From Myxococcaceae bacterium (GTDB taxonomy: Bacteria > Myxococcota > Myxococcia > Myxococcales > Myxococcaceae): 45,543 nt of DNA. A program made the translations under genes and the position numbers. The notes beneath the pieces were generated by a model. That model made no database searches. It was not told where the DNA came from and was given only the letters and a program-made list of their open reading frames with translations. Location: positions 1-45,543 of the forward strand of contig RPRB01000019.1 in NCBI GenBank assembly GCA_003818285.1. Reading direction: 5' to 3'. Shown here in pieces: positions 7,080-45,117 of this stretch (its first letter is position 1; every line of letters starts with the position of its first letter).

Positions 7080-7957
7080 AGGGAATCATCCTGGCTGGCG
7101 GCTCCGGAACGCGGCTCTATCCACTGACCCGCGTGGTCAGCAAGCAGCTGCTCCCGATCTACGACAAGCCGATGGTCTACTACCCGCTGAGCACCCTGAT
7201 GCTCGCGGGCATCCGGGACATCCTCGTCATCTCCACCCCACAGGACCTGCCGCGCTTTCGCGAGCTGCTCGGAGACGGCCAGCAGTGGGGGCTCTGGTTC
7301 ACCTATGCGGAGCAGCCGCGGCCCGATGGCCTGGCGCAGGCCTTCATCATAGGCCGCAACTTCGTGGGCACGGACCGCGTCGCGCTGGTCCTCGGCGACA
7401 ACATCTTCCACGGGCACGGGCTCCCGGAGAAACTCAAGGCTGCCGCCGCGCGCTCCACGGGTGCCACCGTGTTCGCCTATTACGTGCGCGATCCGGAGCG
7501 GTACGGCGTGGTGGAGCTGGGCCCCGACGGACGCGCGCTCTCCATCGAGGAGAAGCCCAAGGCTCCCCGCTCGAGCTACGCCGTGACCGGGCTCTACTTC
7601 TACGACAACCGGGTGCTCGACATCGCCTCGCGCCTGAAGCCCTCGGCCCGCGGCGAGCTCGAGATCACCGACGTGAACCAGGCGTACCTCGAGGGTGGTG
7701 ACCTCCACGTGCAGGTGCTGGGCCGCGGCTTCGCCTGGCTGGACACCGGCACCCACGAGTCGCTCCAGAACGCCTCCACCTTCATCGAGATCGTCGAGCG
7801 CAGGCAGGGGCTCAAGGTCTCCTGCATCGAGGAGATCGCCTTTCGTATGGGGTACATCGGGCCGGACCAGCTACGCGCGCTGGCCGACCCGATGCGGAAG
7901 AACGAGTACGGGCAGTACCTGCTCGACCTGCTCGAAAACCGGGGAGCCATCGGATGA
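7076..7957 (+). CDS. rfbA: Glucose-1-phosphate thymidylyltransferase
   Basis: 293 residues, the usual RmlA length. It makes dTDP-glucose from glucose-1-phosphate and dTTP, opening the dTDP-rhamnose route. The nucleotidyltransferase signature [11 protein letters not shown] sits at residues 8-18, [16 protein letters not shown] follows directly, LGDNIFHG near 105 holds the metal-binding Asp, and the IEEKPKAP segment near 158 is family-typical. I start it at GTG 7076, which overlaps the rfbD stop as GTGA and gives an N-terminus VKGIILAGG that matches family members. Its own stop overlaps the rfbC start by ATGA. Confidence 0.95.
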
Positions 7958-8505
7958 ATGTCGTGCCCACCGAGCTTCCGGAGGTGCTGATCCTCGAGCC
8001 GAAGGTGCACGGGGACTCCCGCGGCTTCTTCTACGAGACATTCCAGTCGAACCGCTACGCCGAGGCCGGGATCTCCGGTCGCTTCGTCCAGGACAACCTC
8101 TCGCGCTCCGTGCGCGGCACCCTGCGCGGACTGCACTTCCAGGAGCCGAGGGCCCAGGGGAAGCTGGTGCAGGTGCTCCGGGGTACGGTGTGGGACGTGG
8201 CGGTGGACGTCCGGCGTGGCTCGCCGCGGTTCGGCCGCTGGGTCGCGCTGGAGCTCTCCGAGACCACGCCGCGCCAGCTGTGGATCCCGCCGGGCTTCGC
8301 CCACGGGTTCTGCGTGCTCAGCGAGTCGGCGGACTTCTTCTACAAGTGCACCGAGCTCTACGCGCCGGAATGCGACCGGAGCGTCGCCTGGAACGATCCG
8401 GCCATCGGCATTCCCTGGCCTGTGAATGAGCCGCTCCTCTCGGCGAAGGACCGCGCCGCTCCACGGCTCGCGGACGCTCCCGTGCTGCCCGCCTTTGCCG
8501 GTTGA
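7954..8505 (+). CDS. rfbC: dTDP-4-dehydrorhamnose 3,5-epimerase
   Basis: 183 residues, a standard RmlC cupin. It epimerises C3 and C5 of dTDP-4-keto-6-deoxyglucose. Visible hallmarks are [10 protein letters not shown] near residue 22, the LRGLHFQ segment with the catalytic His near residue 61, [15 protein letters not shown] near 80, and [15 protein letters not shown] near 110. [13 protein letters not shown] contains the aromatic and Tyr positions of the active site. It overlaps rfbA by four bases. With rfbA, rfbB and rfbD it completes the pathway, so this locus can supply its own activated rhamnose. Confidence 0.95.
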
Positions 8506-8506
8506 C

Positions 8507-10555
8507 GTGCGCGAGCTGCTCCCGGACTGGCTGCTCTCGCCCGCCTACGCGTTCCGGCGCGCGTTCCTGCCCCGGCACGGCTCTTTCCGGCTGACCCGCG
8601 ACGGCGAGGGCCCCTTCCGGCTCTCCCCGGCCACGGGGCGGTTGCCGCACGGCCGGGTCCTGCTCCGGCCCTCCGCCTGGCCGACCTGGGATGCGCTCGA
8701 GCTCGAGGGCTCGGTGTGGGTCTCCGGATCCTCCGTCCGCTGGTCGCGTTGGCTCGACCCGCCGGCCACGGGGGAGTCGATGGAGCTCGAGCTCCCCTAC
8801 GGCCTGCGGGACCTCGCGGCGCGGCTGCTGCCCGATCCCCTGGGGATACGCGGACTCGCGCTCGAGCTCGACGAGCTGGGGGCCGTGTGGGCCACCCGCG
8901 CCGCGCTCGCCGACGGACGCGGTGCGGTGCTTCGCGAGCTCCTCCACGCCGCCGACGGCCAGCGCCTGGCCCCCTCGCGGCTCGCGGCGGTGGCCTGGAC
9001 GGTCCGGGAGGGAATCGACGCCGCGGGCTACGCCCGCTGGCTCCGTACCTTCGAGACGCCCTCCGCTCCCGCGCTCGAACGGCTCCGCGCCCGCGCGTTG
9101 AGCTCCGGGCTCCGGGTCAGCATCGTCACTGCCCGGAGGACGGACGGGCCCGAGCTCGCGTCCCAGCTGCCGGGGAAGGTGGAGCTCGTGGGGTCCTTCG
9201 CGGACGCCCGCGGTGACATCCTCGTTCCGCTGGGCACCGGGGTGCGCCTCGCGCCACATGCGCTCCCGACGCTTCTCTGCGTCTTCCAGGAGCGGCCGGC
9301 GGTCACGCTCCTCCACGCCGACCACGATCGCGCGGAGGCAGGCAGCCGGGGCCACCCCGAGCTCAAGCCGGTGCTCGGCCCCGAGCTGTTTCGCAGCCGG
9401 AACGTGCTCCGGGGACTGGTCGCCGTCCGGCGCTCCGGGATGCCGGAGCCGAGCGACCCGAGACTCGACGACGCGGGCCTCTACGCCTGGGGGCTCGCCT
9501 GCACCGCCGGGCTCCTCCCGGAGAGCATCGTGCGTGTGCCGGTCGTTCTCGCGACGCTCGAGGCGCGTCTGGAGATCGACGAGGACGGTGAGCGCACCGC
9601 GCTCGCGCAGCATCTCGGCCGCACGGGAGTCCAGGCCGAGGTGGCCCCGGGCCTCGCCCCCGGCCTGCATCACGTGCGCTACCGCCTGCCTGCGCCCGCT
9701 CCCCGGGTCACCCTCGTCGTGCCGACCCGCAACGCCCGGGCGCTGGTCGAGACCTGCGTGCGGAGCGTCCGGCGACTCACCCGGTACCCGAGCTACGAGA
9801 TCCACCTCGTGGACAACGGCAGCGACGCGCCCGACGCGCTGGCCGCGTTCGACGCCCTGGCGCAGGCCGGGGACGTGGTGCTCCACCGGGACCCGCGGCC
9901 GTTCAACTTCTCGGCGCTGAACAACGCCGCGGTCGGGAGGACCGAGGCCGACGTGGTGTGCCTCATCAACAACGACGTCGAGGCGCTCCACCCCGAGTGG
10001 CTCGAGGAGATGGTCTCGGTGGCGCTGCAGCCGGGCGTGGGTGCCGTCGGCGCGAAGCTCTTCTACCCGGATGGTCGCGTCCAGCACGGCGGCGTCCTGG
10101 TCGGACTGCACGGCGCCGCCGACCACGCCTACGCCGGCGCACCCGGAAATTCTCCGGGCTACGCCCAGCAGCTCCTCGTCCGCCGCGAGGTCTCGGCGGT
10201 CACCGCGGCCTGCCTGGTGGTGCGGCGCGCGCTCTACCTCGAGGTGGGCGGGCTCGACGAGGAGGCGTTCCCGGTCTCCTTCAACGACGTCGACTTCTGC
10301 CTCAAGCTCCGCGAGCGTGGCTACCGCAACGTCTGGACCCCCCACGCCCGTCTCATGCATCACGAGTCCGCCAGCCGGGGCAAGGCGCTCCGGCTCGAGC
10401 AGAAGGCCCGCGCCGACCGCGAGCTGGCCGCGCTCCGCACCCGCTGGGCGGACGCGCTGCTCGACGACCCGTACCACAGCCCCAACCTCTCGCTGAGCTC
10501 GAACGTTCCTCGACTTGCATGGCCTCCGCGAGAGCGGCGGCCCTGGTCCTTCTGA
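8507..10555 (+). CDS. Tandem-module GT2 glycosyltransferase
   Basis: 682 residues from GTG 8507. The C-terminal module (about residues 398-640) is a clear GT2 enzyme: VTLVVPTRNARALVETC, HLVDNGSD, NFSALNNAA, CLINNDVEAL (acidic metal site) and SFNDVDFCLKLRERGYRNVW. The middle part (about residues 190-390) reads like a second, degenerate GT2 copy: TLLHADHDRAEAG sits where related proteins have a YSDED-type site, followed by KPVLGPELFRSRNVL. Residues 1-180 are unassigned. The start is one base after the rfbC stop (TGA C GTG). An in-frame ATG at 8426 would overlap rfbC by 80 bases and is less likely. Probable role: adding a sugar to the surface glycan; the donor is unknown. Confidence 0.85.
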   Translation: MRELLPDWLLSPAYAFRRAFLPRHGSFRLTRDGEGPFRLSPATGRLPHGRVLLRPSAWPTWDALELEGSVWVSGSSVRWSRWLDPPATGESMELELPYGLRDLAARLLPDPLGIRGLALELDELGAVWATRAALADGRGAVLRELLHAADGQRLAPSRLAAVAWTVREGIDAAGYARWLRTFETPSAPALERLRARALSSGLRVSIVTARRTDGPELASQLPGKVELVGSFADARGDILVPLGTGVRLAPHALPTLLCVFQERPAVTLLHADHDRAEAGSRGHPELKPVLGPELFRSRNVLRGLVAVRRSGMPEPSDPRLDDAGLYAWGLACTAGLLPESIVRVPVVLATLEARLEIDEDGERTALAQHLGRTGVQAEVAPGLAPGLHHVRYRLPAPAPRVTLVVPTRNARALVETCVRSVRRLTRYPSYEIHLVDNGSDAPDALAAFDALAQAGDVVLHRDPRPFNFSALNNAAVGRTEADVVCLINNDVEALHPEWLEEMVSVALQPGVGAVGAKLFYPDGRVQHGGVLVGLHGAADHAYAGAPGNSPGYAQQLLVRREVSAVTAACLVVRRALYLEVGGLDEEAFPVSFNDVDFCLKLRERGYRNVWTPHARLMHHESASRGKALRLEQKARADRELAALRTRWADALLDDPYHSPNLSLSSNVPRLAWPPRERRPWSF

Positions 10556-10556
10556 C

Positions 10557-11369
10557 GTGGCCCGCCTCCGGATCGGCATCGTGCTGTTCGAGAGCTCGCG
10601 CGCCGAGCTCGAGCGGCTCGCGCGCTCGCTGAAGGCCGCCGAGTTCCCGCCGGACCTCCGGGTCGAGGTCCGCGCGCTGGACAACTCGCCGGACCGGTCG
10701 CTCGAGCCGGTGGTGCTCGCCCTCCTGGGGCAGGGCACCTACGTCTGGACCGGCGCAAACCGCGGCTTCGGCGCCACGCACAACCTCGGGATGCACGATG
10801 CCTTCTCGGCCGGCGCCGACGGCTACCTCTGCCTCAATCCCGACGCCGTGCTCCACCCCCGCTGCCTCCGGGAGCTGTGGACCACGGCGACCCTGCCCGA
10901 CACCGGGCTGGTCGACGCCCGCACCTTCCCCGAGGAGCACGCGAAGCCGTACGACCCGGAGACCGGCGACACCCCCTGGTGCACCGGCACCGCGCTGCTC
11001 GTCCGTCCCGCGGCCTTCGCCGCCACCGGTGGCTTCGATGAGGGCCTTTTCATGTACGGGGAGGACGTGGATCTCTCCTGGCGCGTCCGCGCGGCCGGCC
11101 TCGGCGTCCGGACCGCGCCCGGCGCCCTGGTCCACCACTGGGTCGAGCACCGCCCGCTCACCCGGGAGCGAGAGCTGCGCGTGCTCCGGAGCGCCGCCTA
11201 CCTCGGGCGGAAGTGGGGCGACGATCGCTTCGCCGAGCAGTACGAGCGACTCTACCGGGTGCGCGCCGGGCGGGAGCCGGTGCTCGAGCCGCCGCCGCCC
11301 GTGCCCCCTGCCACCCGCCGCTTCGCGGACCTCGCGCACGGCGTGCGCTTCGCGAGGTCGCGCTGGTGA
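10557..11369 (+). CDS. GT2 family glycosyltransferase (rhamnosyltransferase-like)
   Basis: 270 residues from GTG 10557, again one base after the preceding stop (TGA C GTG). It is a compact GT-A enzyme: RIGIVLFESS strand 1, ALDNSPD, GANRGFGATHNLG, CLNPDAVLHP (the DxD-equivalent position is NPDA) and LFMYGEDVDLSWRVRAAG. This pattern is shared with WbbL/RfbF-type rhamnosyltransferases and COG1216. The nearby dTDP-rhamnose genes make L-rhamnose a reasonable donor, but that is inference. An alternative ATG at 10515 lies inside the previous gene. The stop overlaps the next gene's GTG. Confidence 0.85.
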   Translation: MARLRIGIVLFESSRAELERLARSLKAAEFPPDLRVEVRALDNSPDRSLEPVVLALLGQGTYVWTGANRGFGATHNLGMHDAFSAGADGYLCLNPDAVLHPRCLRELWTTATLPDTGLVDARTFPEEHAKPYDPETGDTPWCTGTALLVRPAAFAATGGFDEGLFMYGEDVDLSWRVRAAGLGVRTAPGALVHHWVEHRPLTRERELRVLRSAAYLGRKWGDDRFAEQYERLYRVRAGREPVLEPPPPVPPATRRFADLAHGVRFARSRW

Positions 11370-12118
11370 GCCCGGCTCCCCGAGTCCACGTCCACCTCAT
11401 CTCCTGGACCGACGAGCCGTGGGATCTCGAGGAAAGCCTCTTCTCGCTGGTCACCCAGGAAGGCGTGACGGGCACGGTCTCCGTGTCCGTCCCTCCGTCG
11501 CTCGAAGCGCACGCTCGCGATGCCTGTGCCAGGCTCGCTCGCCTCGGGGGTGCGGTCGAGCTCCGGCCGGGCACGCCCCCGCGCTGGGCCCCCGAGGCCG
11601 AGGCGGTCACGGTCTGGGTCGCGGGCACGGTCGCCACTCCGGACCATCTCGCTCGCGCGCTCTCCTCGAGCGGAGCGGCGGGCGCCCTCGTCGTCGCTCC
11701 CGCTCGCCGCGTCCTCCGCCGACCCGTCCCCGGGCGCCCGCCGTACGTGGTGAGCAAGACCCGGCGCTTCACCTCGTCGATGCCCTTCCTGGCCGAGCTC
11801 GAGCGCGATCCAGCCTTCCTGGGCCGATGCCTCGTCCCCGCCGCCCATGCTCCGGGCTGGCTGCCCGGCCCCCCCGAGGAGCACCGCCGCTGGGCCGCGG
11901 AGGCCTGGGCCGCCGGATCCGTCACCCGCGTCCCGGGTCCCCCGGCGGTGGATCTCCCGGATCTGCGCCCGGACCGAAGACTCCGCTCGGCCGACGACCT
12001 GCGCGATACCCTGGCCGACCTGCGCTACCAGGGACCCCGCTGGCTCGAGCGCCGCGCGCTACTCGTCTTCGACCGCCTCCGCGGGCTCTACCACCGCCTC
12101 CGTAACGGGGATCACTGA
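11366..12118 (+). CDS. Unidentified GT-locus protein with a GT-A-like N-terminus
   Basis: 250 residues from GTG 11366, overlapping the preceding GT2 gene by GTGA. I do not recognise a named family. The first 90 residues (VHVHLISWTDEPWDLEESL, then SVSVPPSLEAHARDACARL) look like the opening strand-helix units of a GT-A glycosyltransferase, but no DxD-type acidic site is evident. YVVSKTRRF near residue 128 is a possible phosphate-binding basic patch. It closes the plus-strand operon and its last 7 bases overlap the 3' end of the convergent membrane-protein gene. It may be an inactive or accessory glycosyltransferase partner; function not assigned. Confidence 0.65.
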   Translation: MSPAPRVHVHLISWTDEPWDLEESLFSLVTQEGVTGTVSVSVPPSLEAHARDACARLARLGGAVELRPGTPPRWAPEAEAVTVWVAGTVATPDHLARALSSSGAAGALVVAPARRVLRRPVPGRPPYVVSKTRRFTSSMPFLAELERDPAFLGRCLVPAAHAPGWLPGPPEEHRRWAAEAWAAGSVTRVPGPPAVDLPDLRPDRRLRSADDLRDTLADLRYQGPRWLERRALLVFDRLRGLYHRLRNGDH

Positions 12119-13461
12119 GGCTGGAAGAGGTTCAGGCGCCGGGCCTCGAGGAAGTCGAGCTTCTCCTGCATCCGCGTCGCGGGAGGATCCGGGTACACCG
12201 GAAAGGCGGTGTCGCCGTCACAGAGGTGGATGTCGTGCCGCTGCCGGTAGCACGCCGCCCAGCGCCGCTTCCCATCGGCATACCGCTGCCCCATCACCTC
12301 CTCGCCGCGGACGTTGAACGTGCGCAGCGTGATCAGCACCAGCACCGGGGAGAGGACGGCCCACCGCGCCGACGCCCGCGCCCGGGTCCGCGCCGCGATG
12401 ACCACCGCCACCCAGCCGGGAACCACGTAGGGGACGTAGCGTGCCGACCCGGCGCTTCCGGGCCCCAGGCACACCCGGCCCACGGCCGTGTTCAGAGCGA
12501 AGAGGCAGCTGAACCCCAGCAGCAGGGCCAGCACCCGACCTGCCGGCTCGTCCCGCCGGAACAGCCGCAGGAGGGCCCAGGCACAGAGAGCCAGGACGCC
12601 CAGGGCCACGCCACGCGCGAGCCACGTCCGCACACCGCCGAGTCGGTGCATCCCCAGGGGGCGCGCGAGCACGAAGCCGAGATAGTCGAGGTACTCCAGC
12701 GGGCGTGGGTGAGGAAACCGGAAGCACTCCACCGCGGGGACGAAGCGCCAGTTCAAGAAGAAGGCCGCCAGGGCTGCGGCGGACAGGACGAGGCCGAGCA
12801 CGGCCGCCCACCGGCGGCGCACGTCTCTGCCGGCGTGAACCCACTCGGAGAGGAACAGCAACGGGTTCACCAGTCCGGCGAAGAAGCCGAAGCCGGTGAA
12901 GGTGGCCAGCCCACCGACGACCCCGCAGGCAACCGCCCGCTGCACGGGCTCCCGTCGTGTCCACGCGAGCGCCAGCACGAAGATCAACGCCATCGGGATG
13001 GGCCCGTGCGCGGGATTGGAGGTGCCGACGAAGAGCTCCTCCAGCCCGCCACCGAGGCAGAGCAGGGGAGCTGCGACGTCGGTCCATGAGGGTGAGCCCG
13101 TCGTCCGGCGGACCGTGGCCCAGGCGAGGGCCGCGGCCGCGATGACGATCGACGCCGAGACCAGCGCCTCCGCCCGGGTGCTCCACCCGGTCGCCGGAAG
13201 CACCCACGCGAGCAGGAGGCCCCCCAGGCCCTGACGATGCGGCCCGTGCTGCAGATCGAACTGCGCCCAGACTCCCGCTCCCCGGAACAGCGGATCGAGG
13301 AAGTCCCACTGGTCCCAGTAGAGGACGTCCACCGCGTGGCGCTGCACGTACAGCAGGAGCCGGACCGCCAGCGCGGCGAGGACCACCAGCGGCAGGGCCC
13401 AGGCGAGGACCTCTCCCGCTCCCCGGCGGCGACTCAGCCCGCCGTCGGCTCGATCGACCAT
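12112..13461 (-). CDS. Polytopic membrane protein of the polysaccharide export operon
   Basis: 449 residues with about nine or ten hydrophobic segments, the first near residue 18 (LAWALPLVVLAALAVRLLL). A conserved-looking first loop contains YWDQWDFLDP and LQHGPHRQG, acidic and His residues placed as in the first periplasmic loop of GT-C type glycosyltransferases. The C-terminal 60 residues are soluble and contain two Cys. It is last in the minus-strand operon; ATG 13461 lies 28 bases inside wzt. It could be a lipid-linked glycosyltransferase that decorates the exported chain, or a polymer-modifying membrane enzyme. The family was not identified, and the GT-C idea is inference. Confidence 0.7.
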   Translation of the reverse strand: MVDRADGGLSRRRGAGEVLAWALPLVVLAALAVRLLLYVQRHAVDVLYWDQWDFLDPLFRGAGVWAQFDLQHGPHRQGLGGLLLAWVLPATGWSTRAEALVSASIVIAAAALAWATVRRTTGSPSWTDVAAPLLCLGGGLEELFVGTSNPAHGPIPMALIFVLALAWTRREPVQRAVACGVVGGLATFTGFGFFAGLVNPLLFLSEWVHAGRDVRRRWAAVLGLVLSAAALAAFFLNWRFVPAVECFRFPHPRPLEYLDYLGFVLARPLGMHRLGGVRTWLARGVALGVLALCAWALLRLFRRDEPAGRVLALLLGFSCLFALNTAVGRVCLGPGSAGSARYVPYVVPGWVAVVIAARTRARASARWAVLSPVLVLITLRTFNVRGEEVMGQRYADGKRRWAACYRQRHDIHLCDGDTAFPVYPDPPATRMQEKLDFLEARRLNLFQPQ

Positions 13462-14687
13462 CGATGCACCGGCGCCAGCAGCCCCGACGAGTCCTGCGCC
13501 CGCACCGCGAACCCGTGCAGCCCCCGGTGCACGTCGTACACCGCGCCGCCGGCGTTCCCGAGCGACAGGTCCACCAGGTAGTTGCCGTCCCCAAGGCCGA
13601 GCCGCGGCATCTCCAGCGTGAGCGTCGCCGCCTCCGAGTCCGGCAGCTTCTCGGTCGTGCTCCACACCAGCGTTCCGCCGTCGGTGCGGAGGCTCAGCTC
13701 GAGCTGCGGGGCCTCCACCGCCCCGTACCGCCGGTAGCGAGCCAGCAGCCGAAACGGTGCATCCGCCGAGAAGACGTGCTGGGGCCCGTCCCGGCCACGG
13801 ATCTCCACCCCGCTCAGCTCCGCCGCGAAGCTTCCCCACCGTCGCCCGGGCTCCGCCGGGGGGCCGGAGCGCGGCTGCACCGGAACCGCCGCGCGGGGCA
13901 CGTGCTGCTCCAGTCCCGCGACCTCGGCCTCGGCCACCGCCGCCCGGTACGCCGCCACCACGTCCACCGGGTTTCCCGAGACCTTGAGCTCTCCCGCATC
14001 GAGCCAGGCCGCCTGGTCGCACCGGCGCTGCAGCGTCCCCAGGTCGTGGGTGACGAGGAGGATGGTCTTCCCCGCCTTCCGGAACTCCTCCATCTTCGCC
14101 GCGCTCTTCCGGCCGAAGTGCTCGTCCCCCACGCTGAGGATCTCGTCGATGAGGAGGATCTCCGGATCCACGTGGGTCGCCACGGCGAAGGCCAGCCGGG
14201 CGTACATCCCGCTGGAGTAGGTGCGCACCGGCTCGTCGATGAAGTCTCCGAGCTCGGAGAACTCGATGATCTCCTCCATCCGACCGCGGATCTCCCGCCG
14301 AGACATCCCGAGGATGATCCCGTTCACGAAGATGTTCTCCCGCCCCGAGAAGTCGGGGTGGAAGCCGGCCCCCAGCTCGAGCAGCGCCGAGATCCGGCCG
14401 TGGACCTCCACCGTCCCGCTGGTGGGGGTGTAGATGCCGGTCACCAGCTTGAGCAAGGTGGACTTCCCCGAACCGTTCCGCCCCACCAGCCCGAACGTCC
14501 TTCCCCGCGGCACCGACAGGGAGACGTTGCGCAGCGCCGGGATGATCGACGACGGGGCCTCGGGCCGCTTCTGTCGCTTCAGCCAGCGGACCAGCTCGCT
14601 CTTCAGCGTGGTGTGCTCCCGCCGGATGGTGCTCTTCCGGAAGCTCTTGCTCACCCCGGTGAGCACGATGGCGTTGGTGGTGGACAT
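13434..14687 (-). CDS. wzt: Polysaccharide ABC exporter ATPase with C-terminal glycan-binding extension
   Basis: 417 residues. Residues about 1-250 form the nucleotide-binding domain: Walker A GRNGSGKST near 68, signature YSSGMYARLAFA near 156, Walker B ILLIDEI near 176 and the switch His in LVTHDLG near 211. Residues about 280-417 are a beta-rich extension (FRLLARYRRYG, LVWSTTEKLPD, GLGDGNYLVDLSL) matching the Wzt C-terminal domain. In E. coli O9a that domain recognises the modified non-reducing end of the glycan. Its start shares one base with the wzm stop (TGATG), so both subunits are coupled. It energises export of lipid-linked polymer across the inner membrane. An in-frame extension upstream would only translate wzm out of frame. 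Confidence 0.93.
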   Translation of the reverse strand: MSTTNAIVLTGVSKSFRKSTIRREHTTLKSELVRWLKRQKRPEAPSSIIPALRNVSLSVPRGRTFGLVGRNGSGKSTLLKLVTGIYTPTSGTVEVHGRISALLELGAGFHPDFSGRENIFVNGIILGMSRREIRGRMEEIIEFSELGDFIDEPVRTYSSGMYARLAFAVATHVDPEILLIDEILSVGDEHFGRKSAAKMEEFRKAGKTILLVTHDLGTLQRRCDQAAWLDAGELKVSGNPVDVVAAYRAAVAEAEVAGLEQHVPRAAVPVQPRSGPPAEPGRRWGSFAAELSGVEIRGRDGPQHVFSADAPFRLLARYRRYGAVEAPQLELSLRTDGGTLVWSTTEKLPDSEAATLTLEMPRLGLGDGNYLVDLSLGNAGGAVYDVHRGLHGFAVRAQDSSGLLAPVHRWSIEPTAG

Positions 14688-15466
14688 CAGACGAGCTCCG
14701 CGAACTCCTCGCGCCGCCGCTCGAACACCCGCGCCGCGATGGCCAGCAGCACCACCGAGCCCAGCGCCACGACTGCCAGCCCCCGCGGGTGCGGCCAGCG
14801 GTGCTCGTAGAAGATGCCCTGGTACGAGGTGGTGATCACCGCCATCGGATTCGCGATCAGGTAGAGTCGCCGGTACGGCTCGGGCACGGCGTTGGGGACG
14901 TAGAGCACCGGGGTCACGAAGAACCAGAGGGTCAGCACGTTGGCCACGATGTGCTGCAGGTCCCGGAAGCGCACGTTGAGCGCCGAGATCACGAACGTCA
15001 CCCCCAGCGTGAACACCAGCTGGACCAGCAGCACCACCGGGAACGCCAGGGCGTGGACGTCCGGCCAGATCCCCACCAGCCCTCCCAGCCCCACCATCAG
15101 CGGGAGGGAGAGCAGGTAGTTGACCAGGTTCGTCGCCACCACCGTCGTCGGAAGCACCTGGGCGGGGAAGCGCACCTTGGTCAGCAGATCCCGCCGGTCG
15201 CTGATGGTGCTCGCGCCGCTCCCGACCGATGTGGAGAACCACAGCCACGGCAGGAGCCCCACGAAGATGAAGTAGGTGTAGTGGGGGATGTTGCTCCGCT
15301 GGATGATGCCGAAGACCAGCCCATACACCGCCATCAGCAGCAGCGGGTTGACGAACGTCCAGAGGAAGCCCAGCGCCGAGCCCCGGTAGCGCGCCTTCAG
15401 CTCGCGCTGGGTGAGGTTCCAGAGCAGCGCCCGGTACTGCCAGAGCTCCCGCAGGTTGCGGATCAT
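14687..15466 (-). CDS. wzm: Polysaccharide ABC exporter permease
   Basis: 259 residues, normal for the ABC-2 type permease family. After an amphipathic N-terminus (LWNLTQRELKARYRGSALG, a signature of Wzm/TagG proteins) six hydrophobic segments are visible, beginning FLWTFVNPLLLMAVYGLVF and ending VALGSVVLLAIAARVF. Together with Wzt it forms the channel for an undecaprenyl-linked O-antigen or teichoic-acid-like polymer. Its start overlaps the stop of the small coiled-coil gene (ATGA) and its stop overlaps wzt, so the whole operon is tightly coupled. Confidence 0.93.
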   Translation of the reverse strand: MIRNLRELWQYRALLWNLTQRELKARYRGSALGFLWTFVNPLLLMAVYGLVFGIIQRSNIPHYTYFIFVGLLPWLWFSTSVGSGASTISDRRDLLTKVRFPAQVLPTTVVATNLVNYLLSLPLMVGLGGLVGIWPDVHALAFPVVLLVQLVFTLGVTFVISALNVRFRDLQHIVANVLTLWFFVTPVLYVPNAVPEPYRRLYLIANPMAVITTSYQGIFYEHRWPHPRGLAVVALGSVVLLAIAARVFERRREEFAELV

Positions 15467-15897
15467 CCGCGGCGCTTCCTCCGGGGCTTCCGCGGAGCCA
15501 AAAGGGCGGCCCGGTCGCCGTTTCGCTGCGCCGCCTCCAGCGCCTCCAGCCGGGCCCGGAGCTGGATCACCTCCGCGGACAGCTGAGCGTCCGCCTCCCG
15601 GACCCGGGCGTTGAAGCGTCGCTGGCGCTCCAGCACCTCGTCGATGAGCGACTGGCAGGCGAGACGGAACACCCGGCGGACGAGGGAGGCCGGCGCTCCG
15701 CGCTCCGTGGCCGGGATGGGCACCGTCGGGTCCTCGTCCTCCTCCAGCGCGCGGACCAGAAAGGAGAGCGGCTCCAGCACCGGCTCGGGCTCGGCCTCCA
15801 CCGGGAGCGCCTCGTCGCGGATGCCGCGGGCCTCGAGCCGTTCGCGCGCCGCCCGGAGCAGGGCGCCGGCGTCGATGTCGCGTCCGAGCAGCTTCAT
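15463..15897 (-). CDS. Small coiled-coil protein between a GT4 gene and wzm
   Basis: 144 residues, soluble, with four-base ATGA overlaps at both ends (GT4 gene upstream, wzm downstream). The N-terminal half is acidic (ALEEDEDPTVPIP); the C-terminal half has a heptad pattern, SLIDEVLERQRRFNARV followed by LRARLEALEAAQRN, and ends in a basic tail (RKPRRKRRG). The RQRRFN segment resembles short helical regions found at the N-termini of some O-antigen methyltransferases and glycosyltransferases. I do not recognise an enzyme domain. Its position suggests an adaptor or scaffold linking glycan synthesis to the exporter. Start ATG 15897 gives the overlap; longer forms would run into the upstream gene. 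Confidence 0.7.
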   Translation of the reverse strand: MKLLGRDIDAGALLRAARERLEARGIRDEALPVEAEPEPVLEPLSFLVRALEEDEDPTVPIPATERGAPASLVRRVFRLACQSLIDEVLERQRRFNARVREADAQLSAEVIQLRARLEALEAAQRNGDRAALLAPRKPRRKRRG

Positions 15898-18119
15898 CGC
15901 CTCACCATCGCATCCATCTCCTCGCGGTAGGCGTCTACCACCCGTTCCCATCGGTAGCGGGACGCGTACCGCCGGGCCGCCCGCGCCATCGCCGCGCGCT
16001 CCCGCCGTACCCGGGCCACTGCCTCGACGAACGACGCCGCGTCCTGGAACGTACCGCCGGCCCGGCTCCGCTCCACGTGTCCCCGCAGCACGTCACTCAC
16101 CGCGTTGCCCAGCATCGGCGTGCCCACCGCGAAGGCCTCCAGCGCGAGGAGGGACAGGCTCTCTCTCGGCGACGGGACGACCGCTGCCAACGCCCCGGCC
16201 AGCCCGTCCCACTTGTCCTGCTCGCTCACCCTGCCCAGCATCCGCACTCCTTCCGCCCGCACGTCCATGCTCGCGTCGCCTGCCAGCACCAGGGTCGGCG
16301 CATCCGGCAGCGCCGCCCGGAGGCGTCGGTACCCCTCGAGGAGCCCCGGAATTCCCTTTCCGCGCTCCACCCGACCCACGTAAAGCAGGTAGTCGCCGGG
16401 AAGCTCGAAGCGCGTCCGGAAGCGCCCGGGCTCGACCGCCGGCGGCTCCACCCCCACCCCTACCACGCGTGCCCGGGCGTGCCGCGGGAATCGTCGGTCG
16501 ATGAGCTCCAGCTCCTCGGGCGTGAGCAACAGGAGCGCCCGGGGCCGCTCGAACACCTCCGCGTAGGCGTCGAATCTCAGCGGCTCCTCGTCATGCGCCG
16601 TCGGAACCAGGAGCGTGCGGTCGCCCACCAGGGGCACCGACCACGCCGTGGAGACGAACAGGTAAGTGAAGGCGACGAAGCCGTCGTACTCCCCGCCGCG
16701 CTCGGACAGATGGCGCCAGAGGCCGGGGAGGATCGGTCCCTGGAGCGCCATCCAGGCCTCCTCCTCGCCCAGATCGAGCGACTGGCCGAAGACCCGCCGC
16801 GAGCGCGCGTTCAGTTCCCGCATCGGCCGCGGGCGAAGGTTGGTGAAGCGCAGGACGGACACCCCGTCGACCCGCGACTCCCCGGCGGGCAGCGCGTTGG
16901 CCCAGGTCAGGTGGTCGGTGGCGCAGCTGGTCAGCACCTGGATGTCCCAGTGAGGCCGCAGTCGCGCCACCACCTGCCCCGCGAGCGCCTCGGCACCTCC
17001 GGTGATGCCCGGCCCGTAGCGCTGCACCACGATGCCCACCCGGGGCTTGCGGCGTGCCGGACGCCGCGGGCGGGGTGGCCTCCCGAGACCGGCGCTCTCC
17101 AGCGCCGCCGAGAGCCGTTCCTCGGAGCGCCCGGGGCCCAGGACCTGGAGCCTCCGCCGCTGTCCGCTGAGCACCCGCCCCCGGAGCCGCGGGTCCGTTC
17201 CGAGCCGCATCGCCACCTCCGCGAGGAGCGCGAACCGCTTCTCGTCGAAGGCGACTCCGGCGCCGCCCAGCGTCGCGGTCACCGCGCCGGCGGCGTAGGC
17301 CAGGACGGGAACCTCGGACGCCATCGCCTCGAGCAGCCCCACGCCCGAGCCGTCCTGCTCGCGCATGGACACGAGGACGGAGCCGCTCCGGTACACCGCG
17401 ACTCGCTCGCCGTGGCTGACCTCGCCGAGCATCGTCACGCCCGGCGTTCGCGCCGCCTCGGACTCGAGCGCGCCGAGGGTGGGGTCGACCGCGCCGGCAA
17501 TCACCAGCCGGGCGTCGGGGCGGATGCGGAGCACCTCCCGGTGGAGCGCGAGCAGGTCCTCGAGATGGGCCTCGCGCGTCATCGGGCCCACGCTCACCAG
17601 GGTCAGCGCCCCCGAGTCGAGGCGAGCCCGGAGCGCGGGGTCCGCCCGCTCCTCCGCGAACCGCTCGGCCTCGACGAAGAGCGGGACGGTGTGCACCTCG
17701 CCGTACCCGGAGCGGGACAGCTCGGACGACGCGAATTCGGAGAGGCCGATGGCAACCGACACGTGCGCCGCCATTCCCGAAAGCTGGGCCCTCCCTGCGA
17801 GCACGGACCGCTCCGCCGGCGTGCCGCGGTGCAGCCGCAGCGAGGGGAGGCCGTGGAACACCACCCCGCGCCGGCCTTGCGTGTGAAGCAGCCGGGACGG
17901 AAGGCTGCTTCCGATCGCGTGGTGAAGGAGCACCCAGTCCCCGGGCTGCACCCGCAGGGCCTGCAGCGGCTGCACCAGCGCCTCCGTTCCCGGCACCCGG
18001 CTCGCTCCGTACAGGCCACCCCAGTGGCCCAGGCGCCGGAGCAGCGCCCGGAACTGCACCGCCGCCTGCGCGGTCGCGTCGCCGAGGCGAAAGTGGGGGA
18101 CCAGCTGGTGGACGGCCAT
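15894..18119 (-). CDS. Tandem GT4 glycosyltransferase (two GT-B modules)
   Basis: 741 residues, about twice the usual GT4 length. The first module (about 1-345) begins MAVHQLVPHFRLGDAT and carries VVFHGLPSLR, SVGPMTREAHLEDLL and DGSGVGLLEAMASEVPVLAY, a GT4 E-x7-E-like region. The second (about 360-741) begins VGIVVQRYGPGITGGAEALA, a classic GT4 N-terminus with the GG acceptor loop, then LLYVGRVERGKGIPGLLEGY and SPRESLSLLALEAFAVGTPML. Both halves keep the C-terminal nucleotide-sugar site, so two linkages may be made by one chain. It is the first gene of the minus-strand exporter operon, 23 bases from a divergent GT4 gene. Sugar specificity is unknown. Confidence 0.88.
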   Translation of the reverse strand: MAVHQLVPHFRLGDATAQAAVQFRALLRRLGHWGGLYGASRVPGTEALVQPLQALRVQPGDWVLLHHAIGSSLPSRLLHTQGRRGVVFHGLPSLRLHRGTPAERSVLAGRAQLSGMAAHVSVAIGLSEFASSELSRSGYGEVHTVPLFVEAERFAEERADPALRARLDSGALTLVSVGPMTREAHLEDLLALHREVLRIRPDARLVIAGAVDPTLGALESEAARTPGVTMLGEVSHGERVAVYRSGSVLVSMREQDGSGVGLLEAMASEVPVLAYAAGAVTATLGGAGVAFDEKRFALLAEVAMRLGTDPRLRGRVLSGQRRRLQVLGPGRSEERLSAALESAGLGRPPRPRRPARRKPRVGIVVQRYGPGITGGAEALAGQVVARLRPHWDIQVLTSCATDHLTWANALPAGESRVDGVSVLRFTNLRPRPMRELNARSRRVFGQSLDLGEEEAWMALQGPILPGLWRHLSERGGEYDGFVAFTYLFVSTAWSVPLVGDRTLLVPTAHDEEPLRFDAYAEVFERPRALLLLTPEELELIDRRFPRHARARVVGVGVEPPAVEPGRFRTRFELPGDYLLYVGRVERGKGIPGLLEGYRRLRAALPDAPTLVLAGDASMDVRAEGVRMLGRVSEQDKWDGLAGALAAVVPSPRESLSLLALEAFAVGTPMLGNAVSDVLRGHVERSRAGGTFQDAASFVEAVARVRRERAAMARAARRYASRYRWERVVDAYREEMDAMVRR

Positions 18120-18142
18120 GAAGCTCGCGGGGGCTCTAGCAC

Positions 18143-19246
18143 ATGTGTCAGGGTGCGCCGCCCGTGGAGCTCACCGTGGCCCTCGACGCGACTCTGTGGG
18201 ACGAGCCGATGACCGGCATCGCCCGCTACGGCCACGCAGTGTCCGGCGCGCTCGAGGCCCGCGGTGTCCGCGTGCTCCGGGTCGGCGCCCGCCGCTCCGG
18301 CGAGCTGCCCCGCCGCGTCCGCAGTCGCACGCTCCACACGCTCGCCGAGCTCCCGCGGATGCTCCCGCGCAGTGGTGCGTCCGTGTTCCAGGCGGTGGGC
18401 AACGTCGACCTTCCGCTGCTCCGGGTGCCGGGCGTGGCGTTCGTGCTCACCGTGCACGATCTCATTCCTCTCACCTCGCCCCGGACCGTCTCCTGGGCCT
18501 TCCACTGGCAGTTCCGGCTGTGGCTCCAGCGGAGCCTCCAGGTCGCCGACCACGTGGTCTGCGTGAGCGCGTGGACCCGCGACCAGCTGCTCCGCCGCCA
18601 CCCCGAGCTGGACCCCGCCCGCGTGTCCATGGTGCACAACGGGGTGGATCACGTGCAGCCACGACCGCTCGATGCGGTGTCGCAGGCGTGGCTGCGCAGC
18701 CTGGGGCTCCCGGAGCGCTGGGTCCTCTTCGCCGGCGCGCTCGACGCCCGGAAGAATCTGGAGCTGGTGCTCGATGCGCTGGAGCGGCTCGGTCCGCGCG
18801 CGCCCGCGCTGGTCCTGGCCGGGCAGCGCTGGTACGGCTCGGGTCCGATCGAGAAACGCATCGGGGGACTCCGGGCGACCGGCCTGGACATCCGCCCGCT
18901 CGGGTACCTCGCCGAGCCGCTCCTCTGGGGTCTCATGGCCGCCGCCCCGGTCTTCGTCTTTCCCTCGCGCGACGAGGGATTCGGCCTGCCGCCGCTCGAG
19001 GCCATGGCGCTCGGGACCCCCGTCGTGGTCAGCACTGCTGCGGCGCTTCCCGAGGTGTGCGGGGAGGCGGCGGTCCAGGTCGGGCCCGACGACGCCGCCG
19101 GTCTCGCCTCCGCGCTGCAGCGGCTCCTGGAGGATCCCGCGGAGCGCACGCGCCGCGGAGAGGCCGGCCGCGAGCGGGCACGCGCGTTCCGGTGGGACGC
19201 TGTGGCCGAGCACCTGGTGAAAATCTACCGCGCCCTCGCCACCTGA
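18143..19246 (+). CDS. GT4 family glycosyltransferase
   Basis: 367 residues, a single GT-B enzyme. Visible are TGIARYGHAVSGAL (acceptor loop, residues about 24-37), TVHDLIPLTSPRTV near 111, VSAWTRDQL, LFAGALDARKNLELVLDAL near 195 and FPSRDEGFGLPPLEAMALG near 273, the E-x7-E sugar-nucleotide site. It resembles mannosyltransferase-type GT4 proteins of O-antigen loci. It diverges from the tandem GT4 gene with a 23-base gap, so the two promoters must overlap or lie within coding sequence. ATG 18143 is used; GTG 18164 is an alternative that removes seven residues. Confidence 0.88.
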   Translation: MCQGAPPVELTVALDATLWDEPMTGIARYGHAVSGALEARGVRVLRVGARRSGELPRRVRSRTLHTLAELPRMLPRSGASVFQAVGNVDLPLLRVPGVAFVLTVHDLIPLTSPRTVSWAFHWQFRLWLQRSLQVADHVVCVSAWTRDQLLRRHPELDPARVSMVHNGVDHVQPRPLDAVSQAWLRSLGLPERWVLFAGALDARKNLELVLDALERLGPRAPALVLAGQRWYGSGPIEKRIGGLRATGLDIRPLGYLAEPLLWGLMAAAPVFVFPSRDEGFGLPPLEAMALGTPVVVSTAAALPEVCGEAAVQVGPDDAAGLASALQRLLEDPAERTRRGEAGRERARAFRWDAVAEHLVKIYRALAT

Positions 19247-37790: not shown

Positions 37791-38657
37791 GTGGGCAACT
37801 CCCCCGTCTCCCCCTGGCTCGCCGCGGCGGCGCTCCTGGCCTGCACGGCCATCGCGCCCGCCGCCGCGCAGGATGCTCCCGACCCCGGTGCCCTCCCGGC
37901 CGGCGCGCGCGCCGAGTACGACCGCGTGCTCCAGGACGAGTTCTGCGGCTGCGGCTCTCCGCACTCGCTCGGCCAGTGCCTGAAGAGCCACTCCGAGTGC
38001 CGGCACAGCCGGCGGCTCGCGCAGATCGCCGCCCTCGAGGCCGCCCGCGGCGTCACCTCCAGCGAGATCGGCGTCGAGCTCGCCCGCTACGACCAGGGCT
38101 TCCGCGACGCCCGCACCGCCTTCAAGGTCGACGAGCGGCAGTGCCGTGGAAAGGGCCCCGTCACCCTCGTCGAGTTCTCCGACTTCGAGTGCCCCCACTG
38201 CGCCGTGCTCCGGCCGGTGCTGGAGAAGTTCGCCACCGACAACGCCTCGAAGGTCAAGCTCTGCTGGATGAGCTTCCCCCTCACCCAGCACCCCAACTCC
38301 ATGCCCGCCGCCCAGGCCACCCTCCTCGCCCGCGACAAGGGGAAGCTCTGGGCCGTCCACGACGCGCTCTTCGAGAACCAGCGCCGCCTCTCTCCCGAGG
38401 TCATCCAGGAGATCCTCGGCAAGGCCGGCATCTCCGCCGCGGAGTGGAAGAAGGCCCTCGCCGACAAGACCTACAAGGAGCAGGCCGAGGCCCAGCGCGC
38501 GGCCGGCGTCGCCGCCGGCGTCAACGCGACCCCCACCGTCTTCGTCAACGGCCGAAAGCTTGACCTCGCTCCCGCCCCCGAGATCCTCGCCATCACCGTG
38601 GACGACGAGCTCGACTGGCAGAAGACACGCGGCACCTGGACCACGGCCAACCGGTGA
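37791..38657 (+). CDS. Exported DsbA-like thioredoxin-fold protein with N-terminal Cys cluster
   Basis: 288 residues from GTG 37791 with AAGGA five bases before. Residues 1-27 are a signal peptide. Residues about 48-70 hold a Cys-rich segment (FCGCGSPHSLGQCLKSHSEC). Residues about 120-280 are a thioredoxin-fold DSBA domain: VEFSDFECPHCAVLRPVLEK gives the CPHC active site (about 135), and NATPTVFVNG holds the cis-Pro (about 250). It resembles DsbG/Com1-type periplasmic oxidoreductases, active on cysteine pairs of exported proteins. The N-terminal Cys cluster may bind metal or act as a resolving pair; that part is inference. Confidence 0.88.
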   Translation: MGNSPVSPWLAAAALLACTAIAPAAAQDAPDPGALPAGARAEYDRVLQDEFCGCGSPHSLGQCLKSHSECRHSRRLAQIAALEAARGVTSSEIGVELARYDQGFRDARTAFKVDERQCRGKGPVTLVEFSDFECPHCAVLRPVLEKFATDNASKVKLCWMSFPLTQHPNSMPAAQATLLARDKGKLWAVHDALFENQRRLSPEVIQEILGKAGISAAEWKKALADKTYKEQAEAQRAAGVAAGVNATPTVFVNGRKLDLAPAPEILAITVDDELDWQKTRGTWTTANR

Positions 38658-41000: not shown

Positions 41001-41096
41001 CGCGGGAGGGGGTCGCTCACGCCAGGGGATGGCCGAAGGTCCTACGGCGACACCCCCGCAGGGATGCCTAAGGTGGCTTCCGCAGGGGGTCTGCAC

Positions 41097-41747
41097 ATGA
41101 AGAGCATCGGAGCGTTCCTGTTGCAGAGGCTCGTCGCCGGGCTTCTGGTCATCGCACCCGTCTACCTCTCCGTCCTCCTGCTGCTGAAGGGGATGGGTTC
41201 GCTGGTGGGGCTGGTGCGTCCGGTCGCCGCGCTCCTCCCGGACTGGCTTCCGCGGGAGGAGCTGGCGGCCCTGGTGCTCGTGCTCGCGCTCTGCCTGTTG
41301 GTCGGGCTCCTCCTGACGACGCGGCCGGGACGGGCCATGCGGACCTGGGTCGAGCACGCGGTGTTCGATCGTCTCCCTGGGTACCGGCTCATCCGCAGCC
41401 TCGCCCAGCAGGTGGCGGGGAAGGGGGAGGAAACCGCGTGGACCCCCGCCCTGGTGGAGATCGAGGACGCTCTCGTCCCCGGCTTCATCATCGAGGAGCT
41501 CGCCGATGGCCGCTGCACCGTCGTCATCCCCTCGGTGCCCACCCCCTTCGCCGGTGCCGTCTACGTGCTCGATCGCGCGCGCGTCCACCCCACCGACGTC
41601 CCGTTCACCGAGGCGATCAAGGTGGTCACCCGCTGGGGCCACGGCGCGGGAGGACTGGTCCAGGCGATGGAGCGCACCCGGGACATGAGGATCTCGCCAG
41701 GCGCGCCGGCGACCCCTGCGAGGACGGTCCAACCCCGGGCACCCTGA
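41097..41747 (+). CDS. DUF502 membrane protein
   Basis: 216 residues. Two membrane helices (about residues 9-34, LVAGLLVIAPVYLSVLLLL; about 58-82, LAALVLVLALCLLVGLLL) are followed by a soluble domain with the DUF502 pattern: DRLPGYRLIRSLAQQV, FIIEELADGRCTVVIPSVPT and TPFAGAVYVLDRARVHPTDV. Function is unknown; plant members (LCV/COV) affect membrane trafficking. ATG 41097 has AGGGGGT upstream and opens with MKSIGAFLLQRL like relatives; ATG 41064 is an alternative. The C-terminal tail is Pro/Arg-rich and variable. Confidence 0.85.
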   Translation: MKSIGAFLLQRLVAGLLVIAPVYLSVLLLLKGMGSLVGLVRPVAALLPDWLPREELAALVLVLALCLLVGLLLTTRPGRAMRTWVEHAVFDRLPGYRLIRSLAQQVAGKGEETAWTPALVEIEDALVPGFIIEELADGRCTVVIPSVPTPFAGAVYVLDRARVHPTDVPFTEAIKVVTRWGHGAGGLVQAMERTRDMRISPGAPATPARTVQPRAP

Positions 41748-41796: not shown

Positions 41797-44700
41797 ATGG
41801 GCGCTTCTTCGCTGCTCGCTCTCATCGTCGCCGCAGGTAGCTCGCTCCCGGCCGGCCCGGAGAGCGCTCCGTTCTCCCTGACCCTCCAGGGCGCGGCGAG
41901 CCTCGGCACCTACGAGGCGGCCGTGAACTGGACGCTCATCCGTCTCATCCGCTCCGACCGCCTGGAGGAGAACGCGCAGCGTGGTCGGCTGCCCCGTCTC
42001 GAGGCGCTCTCCGGTTCCTCGGCGGGCAGTGTCAACGCCCTCCTCGCCGCCGCGCTGTGGTGTGAGGCCGACGACGAGGTGGACAACCTCTCCGTGGATC
42101 GGAACCTCCTTCGCGACGCCTGGCTTGCGATCGGGCTGGACGAGCTCCTTCCGGGCGACCCGGACCTCTACACGCCGGCGGACGGCCTGTTCGCCGCGTC
42201 CGCCTTCACCCCCGTGGTGGACAGCGTCCAGAGCCGGGTCTTCTCGGGGAAGGGGCTTCGCTTCAAGCCCGGATGCCGTGTTCCGGTGGGCTTCACCATG
42301 ACCCGCGTGGTGCCCCAGCTCCGCACGGTCTCCGGCCTGCGCGTGAAGTCCCAGCAAACCGTGGTGCCGCTGATCTTCGAGGTGGATCGGACCGGCGTTC
42401 CCAGGCTCCGCCGTGACACCGGGCTGCGGTCCACTGGGATGGCAGCCGACGCGGCCACCTTGGCCGACGCCATGGACGCGTCGGGTCCGTACATTCCCTC
42501 GGACCAGGCGATCCAAGCGCTGCTGGCCTCGGCAGCCTTCCCCGTCGCCTTCGGAGCCCGACCGGTGTGCGAATGCCGCCGGGCGTGCGGGGATGGGCAG
42601 CGCGAGGTGACCCCCGATCAGTGCCCGGGACCCCTGCCCGGGAAGGCGCTCGGCGGTCTGACCTGCTCCGCCTACAGCGCGGCCCGTGGTGGCCAGGAGT
42701 TCAAGCTCTGCCGGAGCAACTTCATCGACGGCGGGTTCCTGGACAACGCGCCAGTGGGGCTGGCCATCGAGCAGGCCGAGGCCTTCTCCTCACCCCGGAC
42801 GCTCCGTCCGCTCACGGTGCTGCTCATCGATCCCAACATCCGACGGCCGCGGGACGAGCCTCCACCTGCGCCGGAGAGAGCCGTCCAGGGGTTCACCGAC
42901 GCGGTGCAGATGGGCAACGACCTGGTGAACACCGCGCGCGAGCAGCGGCTCGCCGAGGCCATCGTCTCCCGGCACTGGAACCTCACCACCCGGGCCCTTC
43001 TCTTTCGAACGGCATCGGCGCTCGCCGCCTTTGCCTCCATCGTCTCCCAGCTGGAGGCCGGACAGGCGTCGGCGGACGCCGAAACGGCGTCCCTGGCCTG
43101 GAGGCCGGCGGGCCAGGAGCGCGGACCGGTGGGCCGCCTCATCGCCCGGTGTCTGCGGCGGCGCCCGCTCGGCGGCACGGAGCTGGAGGCCTGTGCGGCC
43201 ACCGTCCAGGGGAAGGGCGGGAACGTCCTGGCCACGCTCGACGCCGGAGCCCGTGCCCAGGGCGCCGCACCTCTCTCCCCGGACGAGGTGCTCCGCTTCG
43301 CCGAGGACCTCGTCTCCTTCATCGAGGGGCTGGGCTCGACGGTACGAGGGACCGGTCTGCACCTCCGATCGACGGTGGCAGCCGGCGCGCTGGCCTTCCT
43401 CGCCGACGAGCTGGTCTCCTATGCCCGCCAGGAGAGTGCGGAGAGTGCGCTCCACCGGATGCGCGCTGCGTGTCTGCGCTCCGCGTCCGCGGTGCAAGGG
43501 CTCGTCGGCCGTGCCATCGAAAACTCCCGTCCCTCCCTGGCCGAGGCGCTCCGGGAGCTGACTGCGTCGGGAGCGCCTTCGGATATTGCCGGGCCCGCGG
43601 CACAGGCGCTGGCCACCCTCGGGACCGGCTCGAGTACCCAGCTCTTTTCCAGCGGCCTCCTCTCCTCTGTCCGGGCGGCGCTCACCGGGGTGCCCGAGAC
43701 GAGCCTCCCGGAGGCGACGCGGGCTGCCGCGCGCCGCATTTCGCTGCTGGGCGAGCTGCGGCCTCGTCTCGCCCGCCTGAGCGATGCCGCGCTCCAGCTC
43801 TCCCAGGATGCGACCGAGATCCAGTCCGACGTGCGCGGCCAGCGGCGCCTGCTGCTCGCCACCCGGTTCACCCCTCTGGCGGGGGAAAAGCTGGAGCACT
43901 TCGCTGGTTTCATGGACCGTCCCCTGCGCGAGCTCGACTACTACAGCGGCATCTACGAAGGGTTGCACGGGATGGCCGTCCTGCTCTGCGCCGCGCAGGA
44001 CCCCTATCTCGCTTCGCGTCCGTTGCCGGTGCTGAAGGCGGACGCGAGCGGAGAGCCCGACCCATCGAGTGAGCAGACCCAGCGCTGCCTCGGTGCGGCG
44101 ATGGGGAAGTCCATCGAGTACCTCCAGATCCTCGCCTCCCCCAAGGCGGGACCGGTGGTGCGGGCGCTCGCCCGCCGCGAGCTGGCGGCGTCGCTGGGAA
44201 GCCGGGCCGAGGCGGAGCGACTGGCCGCAACCCCGGAGTGGAGCTGGCTCGGTGCGCCGCCCGACCTCCGGGCCGGTGGAGCGATGGGCATCGCGCTGGC
44301 CGTGCTCCTGGAGCCGGCCGTGCCCTGCACCGTGTCTGCCAAGGAAGCGCTCTGCCCGAAGGACATCACGTTCGAGGAATTCCTCGAGCGGCTGCGGGTC
44401 GCCGGCTACCGGCCCGAATCCAAGGCGATGCAGGCCGCGCTTGCCGACCAGGGGCGCTGGCTGTCGCAGACCGTTCGGCGTTCGCTCGACCGGGCGGCGA
44501 CGGTCGAGATCGCCCAGGCCTCCTCGGAATCGGCTTCCCCGGAGTCGGCCTCCACCCGCAAGGCGGTGAACGCGGTCATCGGTGGCGGGGAGACGTTCAG
44601 CCGCGCCGCGGAACGCTCGGGGGACGTCTCTTTTCAGATCGATCCCTCGACCATTCCTCTCCACCCGCTGGCCGACGGGTCGTACGTCCCCATCGTCCTC

Positions 44701-45117
44701 GCCCACGTGGTGCCCTACCGGGTGGCGCTGGACGTGGTGGGAGGAAGCATCGCCCTGAGCTGGCTCGAGCCGCGCCTCCAGCTTGGTCGGTGGTTCTCGG
44801 TGGAGTCGACCCTTCAGGTCATCGACATCCAGTTCAGCCCGAACGTCACCTCCAGCACGCTGGGGGTGCGGGGCGCGCTGCATCTCGGTTCGGTGGGGAT
44901 CGCCTCCGGGCCTCGGTGGTCGCTGGACTGGGGGGGCGGGTCGCGCTTCGGCGTGGAGTTCGACGTGACCCTGCTACAGGACAGGGTCGGGGTGTCGTTT
45001 GGGTTCCGGGACGTGAGCGGGGGGAACTGGAACACTCCCTTCGTCGCGCTCACCGTCGCCGACCTGAACGGCATGCTGTACTGGCTCGTCCCCCCGGCCT
45101 GGCGCTCGGGACGCTAA
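41797..45117 (+). CDS. Very large patatin-like phospholipase with Cys-rich insert and beta-rich C-terminus
   Basis: 1106 residues, several times a normal patatin domain. The N-terminus (MGASSLLALIVAAGSSLPAG) looks like a weak signal peptide. The patatin fold follows: LTLQGAASLGTYEAAVNWTL (oxyanion loop), ALSGSSAGSVNALL with the Ser nucleophile near residue 73, and FIDGGFLDNAPVGLA with the catalytic Asp near residue 311. Between them (about 257-305) six or more Cys (CECRRAC, QCPGP, LTC, LC) suggest a disulfide-bonded insert, which fits export. Residues about 340-930 are largely helical. Residues about 966-1101 are beta-rich (RVALDVVGGSIALSW, LQVIDIQFSP, VGVSFGFRDVSGG), perhaps an outer-membrane or surface domain. 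Role: lipid acyl hydrolase at the envelope; target unknown. Confidence 0.85.
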   Translation: MGASSLLALIVAAGSSLPAGPESAPFSLTLQGAASLGTYEAAVNWTLIRLIRSDRLEENAQRGRLPRLEALSGSSAGSVNALLAAALWCEADDEVDNLSVDRNLLRDAWLAIGLDELLPGDPDLYTPADGLFAASAFTPVVDSVQSRVFSGKGLRFKPGCRVPVGFTMTRVVPQLRTVSGLRVKSQQTVVPLIFEVDRTGVPRLRRDTGLRSTGMAADAATLADAMDASGPYIPSDQAIQALLASAAFPVAFGARPVCECRRACGDGQREVTPDQCPGPLPGKALGGLTCSAYSAARGGQEFKLCRSNFIDGGFLDNAPVGLAIEQAEAFSSPRTLRPLTVLLIDPNIRRPRDEPPPAPERAVQGFTDAVQMGNDLVNTAREQRLAEAIVSRHWNLTTRALLFRTASALAAFASIVSQLEAGQASADAETASLAWRPAGQERGPVGRLIARCLRRRPLGGTELEACAATVQGKGGNVLATLDAGARAQGAAPLSPDEVLRFAEDLVSFIEGLGSTVRGTGLHLRSTVAAGALAFLADELVSYARQESAESALHRMRAACLRSASAVQGLVGRAIENSRPSLAEALRELTASGAPSDIAGPAAQALATLGTGSSTQLFSSGLLSSVRAALTGVPETSLPEATRAAARRISLLGELRPRLARLSDAALQLSQDATEIQSDVRGQRRLLLATRFTPLAGEKLEHFAGFMDRPLRELDYYSGIYEGLHGMAVLLCAAQDPYLASRPLPVLKADASGEPDPSSEQTQRCLGAAMGKSIEYLQILASPKAGPVVRALARRELAASLGSRAEAERLAATPEWSWLGAPPDLRAGGAMGIALAVLLEPAVPCTVSAKEALCPKDITFEEFLERLRVAGYRPESKAMQAALADQGRWLSQTVRRSLDRAATVEIAQASSESASPESASTRKAVNAVIGGGETFSRAAERSGDVSFQIDPSTIPLHPLADGSYVPIVLAHVVPYRVALDVVGGSIALSWLEPRLQLGRWFSVESTLQVIDIQFSPNVTSSTLGVRGALHLGSVGIASGPRWSLDWGGGSRFGVEFDVTLLQDRVGVSFGFRDVSGGNWNTPFVALTVADLNGMLYWLVPPAWRSGR

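Follow-up and report, generated by a model that had tools for sequence, protein, structure and literature searches.

A Myxococcaceae patatin with a helical body and a predicted C-terminal outer-membrane-type beta barrel

The window analysed here is a stretch of 45,543 nucleotides from a Myxococcaceae bacterium (contig RPRB01000019.1 of assembly GCA_003818285.1), and the open reading frame at positions 41797-45117 on its forward strand raises the question of where in the cell a patatin of 1106 amino acids works and what holds it there. A preliminary description had proposed an exported or surface phospholipase, perhaps a predation toxin or an envelope lipase. Based on profile matches, structure prediction and family comparison, the protein is probably a patatin phospholipase anchored in the outer membrane, with its body in the periplasm and envelope lipids as its substrate. 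The whole gene (41797..45117, +) would thus encode an exported patatin, a helical body and a predicted C-terminal outer-membrane-type beta barrel (Pfam, AlphaFold2, dN/dS). The coordinates given below for its parts are on the same strand.

The ATG is the first start codon downstream of an in-frame stop, and GC at the three codon positions is 0.72/0.55/0.87. Because of this codon-position GC, a full-length paralogue and the dN/dS against an orthologue, the reading frame is, on these sequence measures, a real high-GC gene under purifying selection. Against an 81%-identical orthologue from the same genus, dN/dS was about 0.25 overall, 0.17 in the patatin part and 0.26 in the barrel, and residues 1-21 were the least conserved (50%). 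The genome holds six patatins, two of which belong to the patatin-helical-barrel family; the second is the paralogue, which has 44% identity (G000:C158:5877-9200, locus L002). Since a sister genome (G001) has two family members, one near each copy, the duplication probably predates the genus. A gene for a DUF502 membrane protein (41064-41747, +) precedes the patatin gene on the same strand with a gap of 49 bp, and the two are possibly on one transcript; no DUF502 gene was found beside the relatives. Elsewhere in the window, glycosyltransferase, methyltransferase, RmlD and WsaF-like genes at 1107-19246 form a surface polysaccharide cluster.

The patatin domain covers residues 22-350 (41860..42846) and was identified by a PF01734 match at residues 28-324 (E 2.2e-12, 48 bits against a curated cut-off of 27.7) and by Foldseek, in which the N-terminus of the full model matched the lipase 9kh6 and patatin-17 (4pkb). 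Besides the profile match over its cut-off, the domain has the GxSxG nucleophile, the DG[GA] dyad and the Gly-rich oxyanion loop of patatin-like phospholipases. Conservation was scored in an alignment of 36 members spanning several phyla. The oxyanion-hole loop GAASLG (residues 32-37, 41890..41907) has G32, S35, L36 and G37 invariant, and the Ser of GSSAG and the Asp of DGGFLDN, both already pointed out in the preliminary description, are likewise invariant as Ser75 (predicted nucleophile, 42019..42021) and Asp311 (predicted catalytic partner, 42727..42729). Ser75 and Asp311 are therefore predicted from conservation to be the candidate catalytic dyad of a lipid-cutting enzyme.

Several features point to export. 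Residues 1-21 (41797..41859) form a Sec signal-peptide-like start with the h-region SSLLALIVAAG, supported by AlphaFold2 and by the starts of relatives; it is short, and its n-region is without Lys or Arg. In the AlphaFold2 model a detached helix (3-13) is followed by residues 14-19, the sole segment with pLDDT below 50, which fits a signal peptide. A recognisable signal peptide opens most relatives. No lipobox was seen in the window protein, whose first Cys is residue 89. The Cys-rich insert noted earlier between Ser and Asp was found again, with six Cys (258, 260, 264, 276, 290 and 305) in residues 258-305 (42568..42711); it is missing or reduced in distant relatives. Cys 89 and 160 go together, 34 members having both and 1 having neither, and in Sulfurovum-type relatives with two Cys in total the two are 89 and 160. 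Cys 731 and 764 occur together in 21 members, neither occurs in 14 and one alone in 0 (p 4e-10 for the pairing, a statistic that ignores kinship). The body has up to seven Cys pairs, several of them clearly co-varying, and because these Cys are gained and lost in pairs, the co-variation points to disulfide bonds and to an oxidising compartment. A gene for a DsbA-like thioredoxin (37791-38657, +) lies 3 kb upstream of the patatin gene; a functional link is not claimed.

The helical body comprises residues 351-939 (42847..44613; AlphaFold2 secondary structure, Pfam), and residues 366-939 (about 570) are modelled as nearly all helix, close to the 600 helical residues first estimated. As had been remarked, this middle is unlike a POTRA: no POTRA matched in Pfam at E 1 in any of the 36 members, and none is present in the AlphaFold2 model. 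An inner-membrane helix in the body was considered and rejected; the top 19-residue hydropathy, 1.68 at position 828, falls inside predicted helices of the folded body. The body includes the conserved module RF.PLAG..L.HFAGF.DRPLRE.DYY.G.Y (residues 690-720, 43864..43956), in which R690, F702, F705, D714, G718 and Y720 are invariant in the 36 aligned members and which is common to the C-terminal part of TIGR03607/DUF3376.

The beta-rich end, seen earlier from the sequence, was modelled as eight strands at residues 975-1087 (44719..45057), a predicted transmembrane-type barrel according to AlphaFold2, Foldseek and strand alternation. AlphaFold2, run with the window protein and 35 relatives as input, gave eight C-terminal strands in the full model (pLDDT 87.1, pTM 0.86), and the C-terminal 171 residues folded alone gave the same eight strands (pLDDT 92.9, pTM 0.84). 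The domain is thus predicted as a separate barrel instead of part of a soluble globule. With the full model as query, Foldseek aligned the C-terminus to a designed transmembrane barrel at prob 1.00 and to PagP at prob 0.98. The isolated domain had transmembrane barrels as its top PDB matches, namely the designed TMB10 (E 0.0078) and TMB2.3 (prob 1.00) together with 6x9z (prob 1.00), followed by PagP (0.97), OmpG (0.93), OprF-N (0.91) and OmpW (0.84); soluble barrels scored lower (range 0.09-0.51, with retinol-binding protein at 0.30 and VioE at 0.09). Individual matches were weak, with none at E <0.001 and main barrel TM-scores of about 0.35-0.58. Averaged over the family, strand hydropathy alternation was 2.78 versus 1.21 in shuffles and above all 2000 shuffles, and the hydrophobic face of the strands is nearly without charged residues throughout the family (0-12%). 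The chain does not stop at the last strand with the customary aromatic residue but continues into a short helix (residues 1090-1097, 45064..45087; motif ADLNGMLYWL, kept across phyla). No Omp85 Pfam match and no match to PF03797 (the 12-strand autotransporter barrel) was obtained in the family. Taken together, the model and the strand pattern make it likely that the C-terminal domain is an outer-membrane-type barrel.

The same layout of patatin, helical middle and beta C-terminus recurs in relatives of roughly 700-1170 amino acids. These are carried by Myxococcaceae and related families, Gammaproteobacteria, Sulfurovum and other Campylobacterota, Desulfosarcina, Mariprofundus, Magnetococcales, Nitrospirae, Nitrospinota and Gemmatimonadetes, and among the 80 top hits listed from an 84,980-species collection, which also includes monoderms, every named phylum is diderm. 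Named sequenced strains with a member include Citreicoccus inhibens M34 and Pyxidicoccus fallax DSM 14698. Nearly every complete member is matched by all three part-profiles. Among 174 Myxococcota genomes, 26 had a match to the barrel profile; in a search there for a barrel without a patatin, the matches fell in reading frames of 784-2206 amino acids with the same middle, bar one fragment at a contig edge. Loci L100 and L142 each have, adjoining the patatin gene, another reading frame that matches the patatin and middle profiles, which suggests tandem copies. Comparison of gene neighbourhoods gave no gene conserved between the window locus and the loci of its relatives; the genomes in which neighbours recur are essentially all of the Sulfurovum type, and the sharing reflects their synteny.

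The proposed course of events is as follows. The protein would be exported by Sec, as its N-terminus indicates, and the patatin and helical body would fold in the oxidising periplasm, where the conserved Cys pairs may form disulfides. The last ~130 residues are predicted to insert in the outer membrane as an eight-strand beta barrel, so that the body would be kept on the periplasmic face, near the inner leaflet of the outer membrane; this placement follows from a C-terminal barrel with an even number of strands. There Ser75 and Asp311 would, by analogy with PlpD, hydrolyse envelope phospholipids or lysophospholipids and so serve lipid turnover or repair. More speculatively, the barrel and the C-terminal helix (ADLNGxxYWL) might, beyond anchoring, also feed membrane lipids to the enzyme.

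Three other readings were weighed against the periplasmic, outer-membrane-anchored one. Retinol-binding protein, avidin and AbyU are among the weak Foldseek matches and the TM-scores to true outer membrane proteins are modest, as would be expected if the protein were a soluble periplasmic patatin whose C-terminal lipocalin- or avidin-like barrel binds or carries lipids and is not an anchor. We consider this unlikely: for the isolated domain the leading transmembrane barrels (prob 0.84-1.00) rank above the soluble ones (0.09-0.51), the nearly charge-free strand face is kept in the whole family, and the extreme C-terminal position and the diderm-only occurrence among the 80 best hits listed fit an outer membrane protein. 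A cytoplasmic or inner-membrane TIGR03607-type patatin, acting as a defence or housekeeping lipase with a hydrophobic start that is no signal peptide, is very improbable. TIGR03607 is indeed the closest named family, with weak matches in 35 of the 36 members, and the signal peptide of the window member is without a charged n-region. However, the window protein is far off the TIGR03607 cut-off (29.1 against 262.45 bits, about a tenth), and the co-varying Cys pairs, the canonical signal peptides of relatives and the barrel-like C-terminus are uncharacteristic of the cytoplasm. PHROGs and PADLOC gave no match, so there is no support for a phage or defence role.

The remaining reading, a surface-displayed or secreted lipase of a new autotransporter-like type V class, for instance a predation or competition effector, is quite unlikely. 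Type V systems are in general built from an N-terminal passenger and a C-terminal barrel, and predatory Myxococcaceae are among the carriers, but eight strands are too narrow for a large chain to pass in any way known so far. The barrel has 12 strands in classical autotransporters and 16 in Omp85 proteins, and no mechanism is known that passes a folded body of 950 residues through an eight-strand barrel. The up to seven Cys pairs in the body also count against autotransport, because disulfides interfere with it (PMC1533851), and PlpD, a precedent, turned out to be periplasmic (PMC11116518). As to predation, the homologue survey did not bear out a link: the family is abundant in the non-predatory lithoautotroph Sulfurovum and also found in Mariprofundus, likewise a lithoautotroph, and no conserved neighbour points to a toxin or immunity unit. 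Of the initial proposals, export thus stands as a prediction (signal-peptide-like start, relatives, Cys pairs) and the envelope lipase is retained by inference, whereas surface location is disfavoured by the eight strands and the Cys pairs and the predation toxin by the lithoautotroph carriers and the neighbourhoods.

The anchored patatin favoured here is best compared with PlpD and FplA (type Vd, patatin-Omp85), with which it shares the N-terminal patatin and, as predicted, a signal peptide and a C-terminal outer-membrane barrel. PlpD was long regarded as a secreted protein, but its patatin domain has been shown to lie in the periplasm, and loss of plpD raises many phospholipids (PMC11116518); in both proteins the patatin most likely acts from the periplasm on envelope lipids, which for the window protein is inferred. 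The two differ in that PlpD/FplA combine a POTRA with an Omp85 barrel of 16 strands, whereas the window protein has no POTRA, ~570 helical residues, a predicted eight-strand barrel and disulfide-type Cys pairs. The 16-strand barrel of PlpD is unrelated to the predicted eight-strand one. Since neither a POTRA nor an Omp85 barrel was found, we conclude from this comparison that the window protein falls outside type Vd and would resemble PlpD in function but differ from it in the barrel and in the lack of a POTRA.

With TIGR03607/DUF3376 the family shares a patatin followed by a helical region and the FAGF.DRPLRE.DYY.G module, and has in addition a signal peptide, Cys pairs of the disulfide type and the predicted C-terminal barrel. 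No protein of the window's own genome matched TIGR03607 over the cut-off. DUF3376 (PF11856, cut-off 25 bits) gave no match for the window protein; 11 of the 36 members matched with a best E of 0.011, and relatives examined singly scored 11.6-14.5 bits. These weak matches of relatives to either profile are located at the 690-720 module, through which the family is, as judged from sequence, a distant relative of TIGR03607/DUF3376. PagP, PagL and other eight-strand outer-membrane barrels are alike in the predicted C-terminal fold and as lipid-modifying enzymes of the outer membrane; no sequence similarity to them was found, and in the window protein the barrel appears to be an anchor, with the predicted activity in the separate patatin domain. 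PDB sequences gave no match when searched with the protein or with the profile of 36 sequences.

In a second exported patatin architecture of Myxococcaceae (L106, L102) the middle is weakly related and the C-terminus is likewise beta-rich, but this C-terminal domain has no match to the barrel profile of the window family. The second architecture was observed in Myxococcaceae and Anaeromyxobacter (L106:5947-8226, L102, L104, L108, L109, L098 and L099; also L015 and L017-L022), where this different beta-rich C-terminus ends like an outer-membrane protein.

The open-licence literature searched contained no paper on a patatin with an eight-strand barrel, on TIGR03607 or on a patatin with DUF3376; the arrangement appears to be widespread, to differ from the PlpD type and to be without a description in that literature. 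More tentatively, it may form a separate class of outer-membrane phospholipases, which arose apart from PlpD when a TIGR03607-like patatin was fused to an eight-strand barrel and then reached many diderm phyla; we regard this as possible, at somewhat less than even chance. Little is understood of how diderms remove or recycle outer-membrane phospholipids, and among patatins tethered there PlpD is the one mainly studied. The family would offer a second, structurally unrelated outer-membrane tether for a patatin in several phyla, with Ser75, Asp311, the Cys pairs and the barrel as testable elements.
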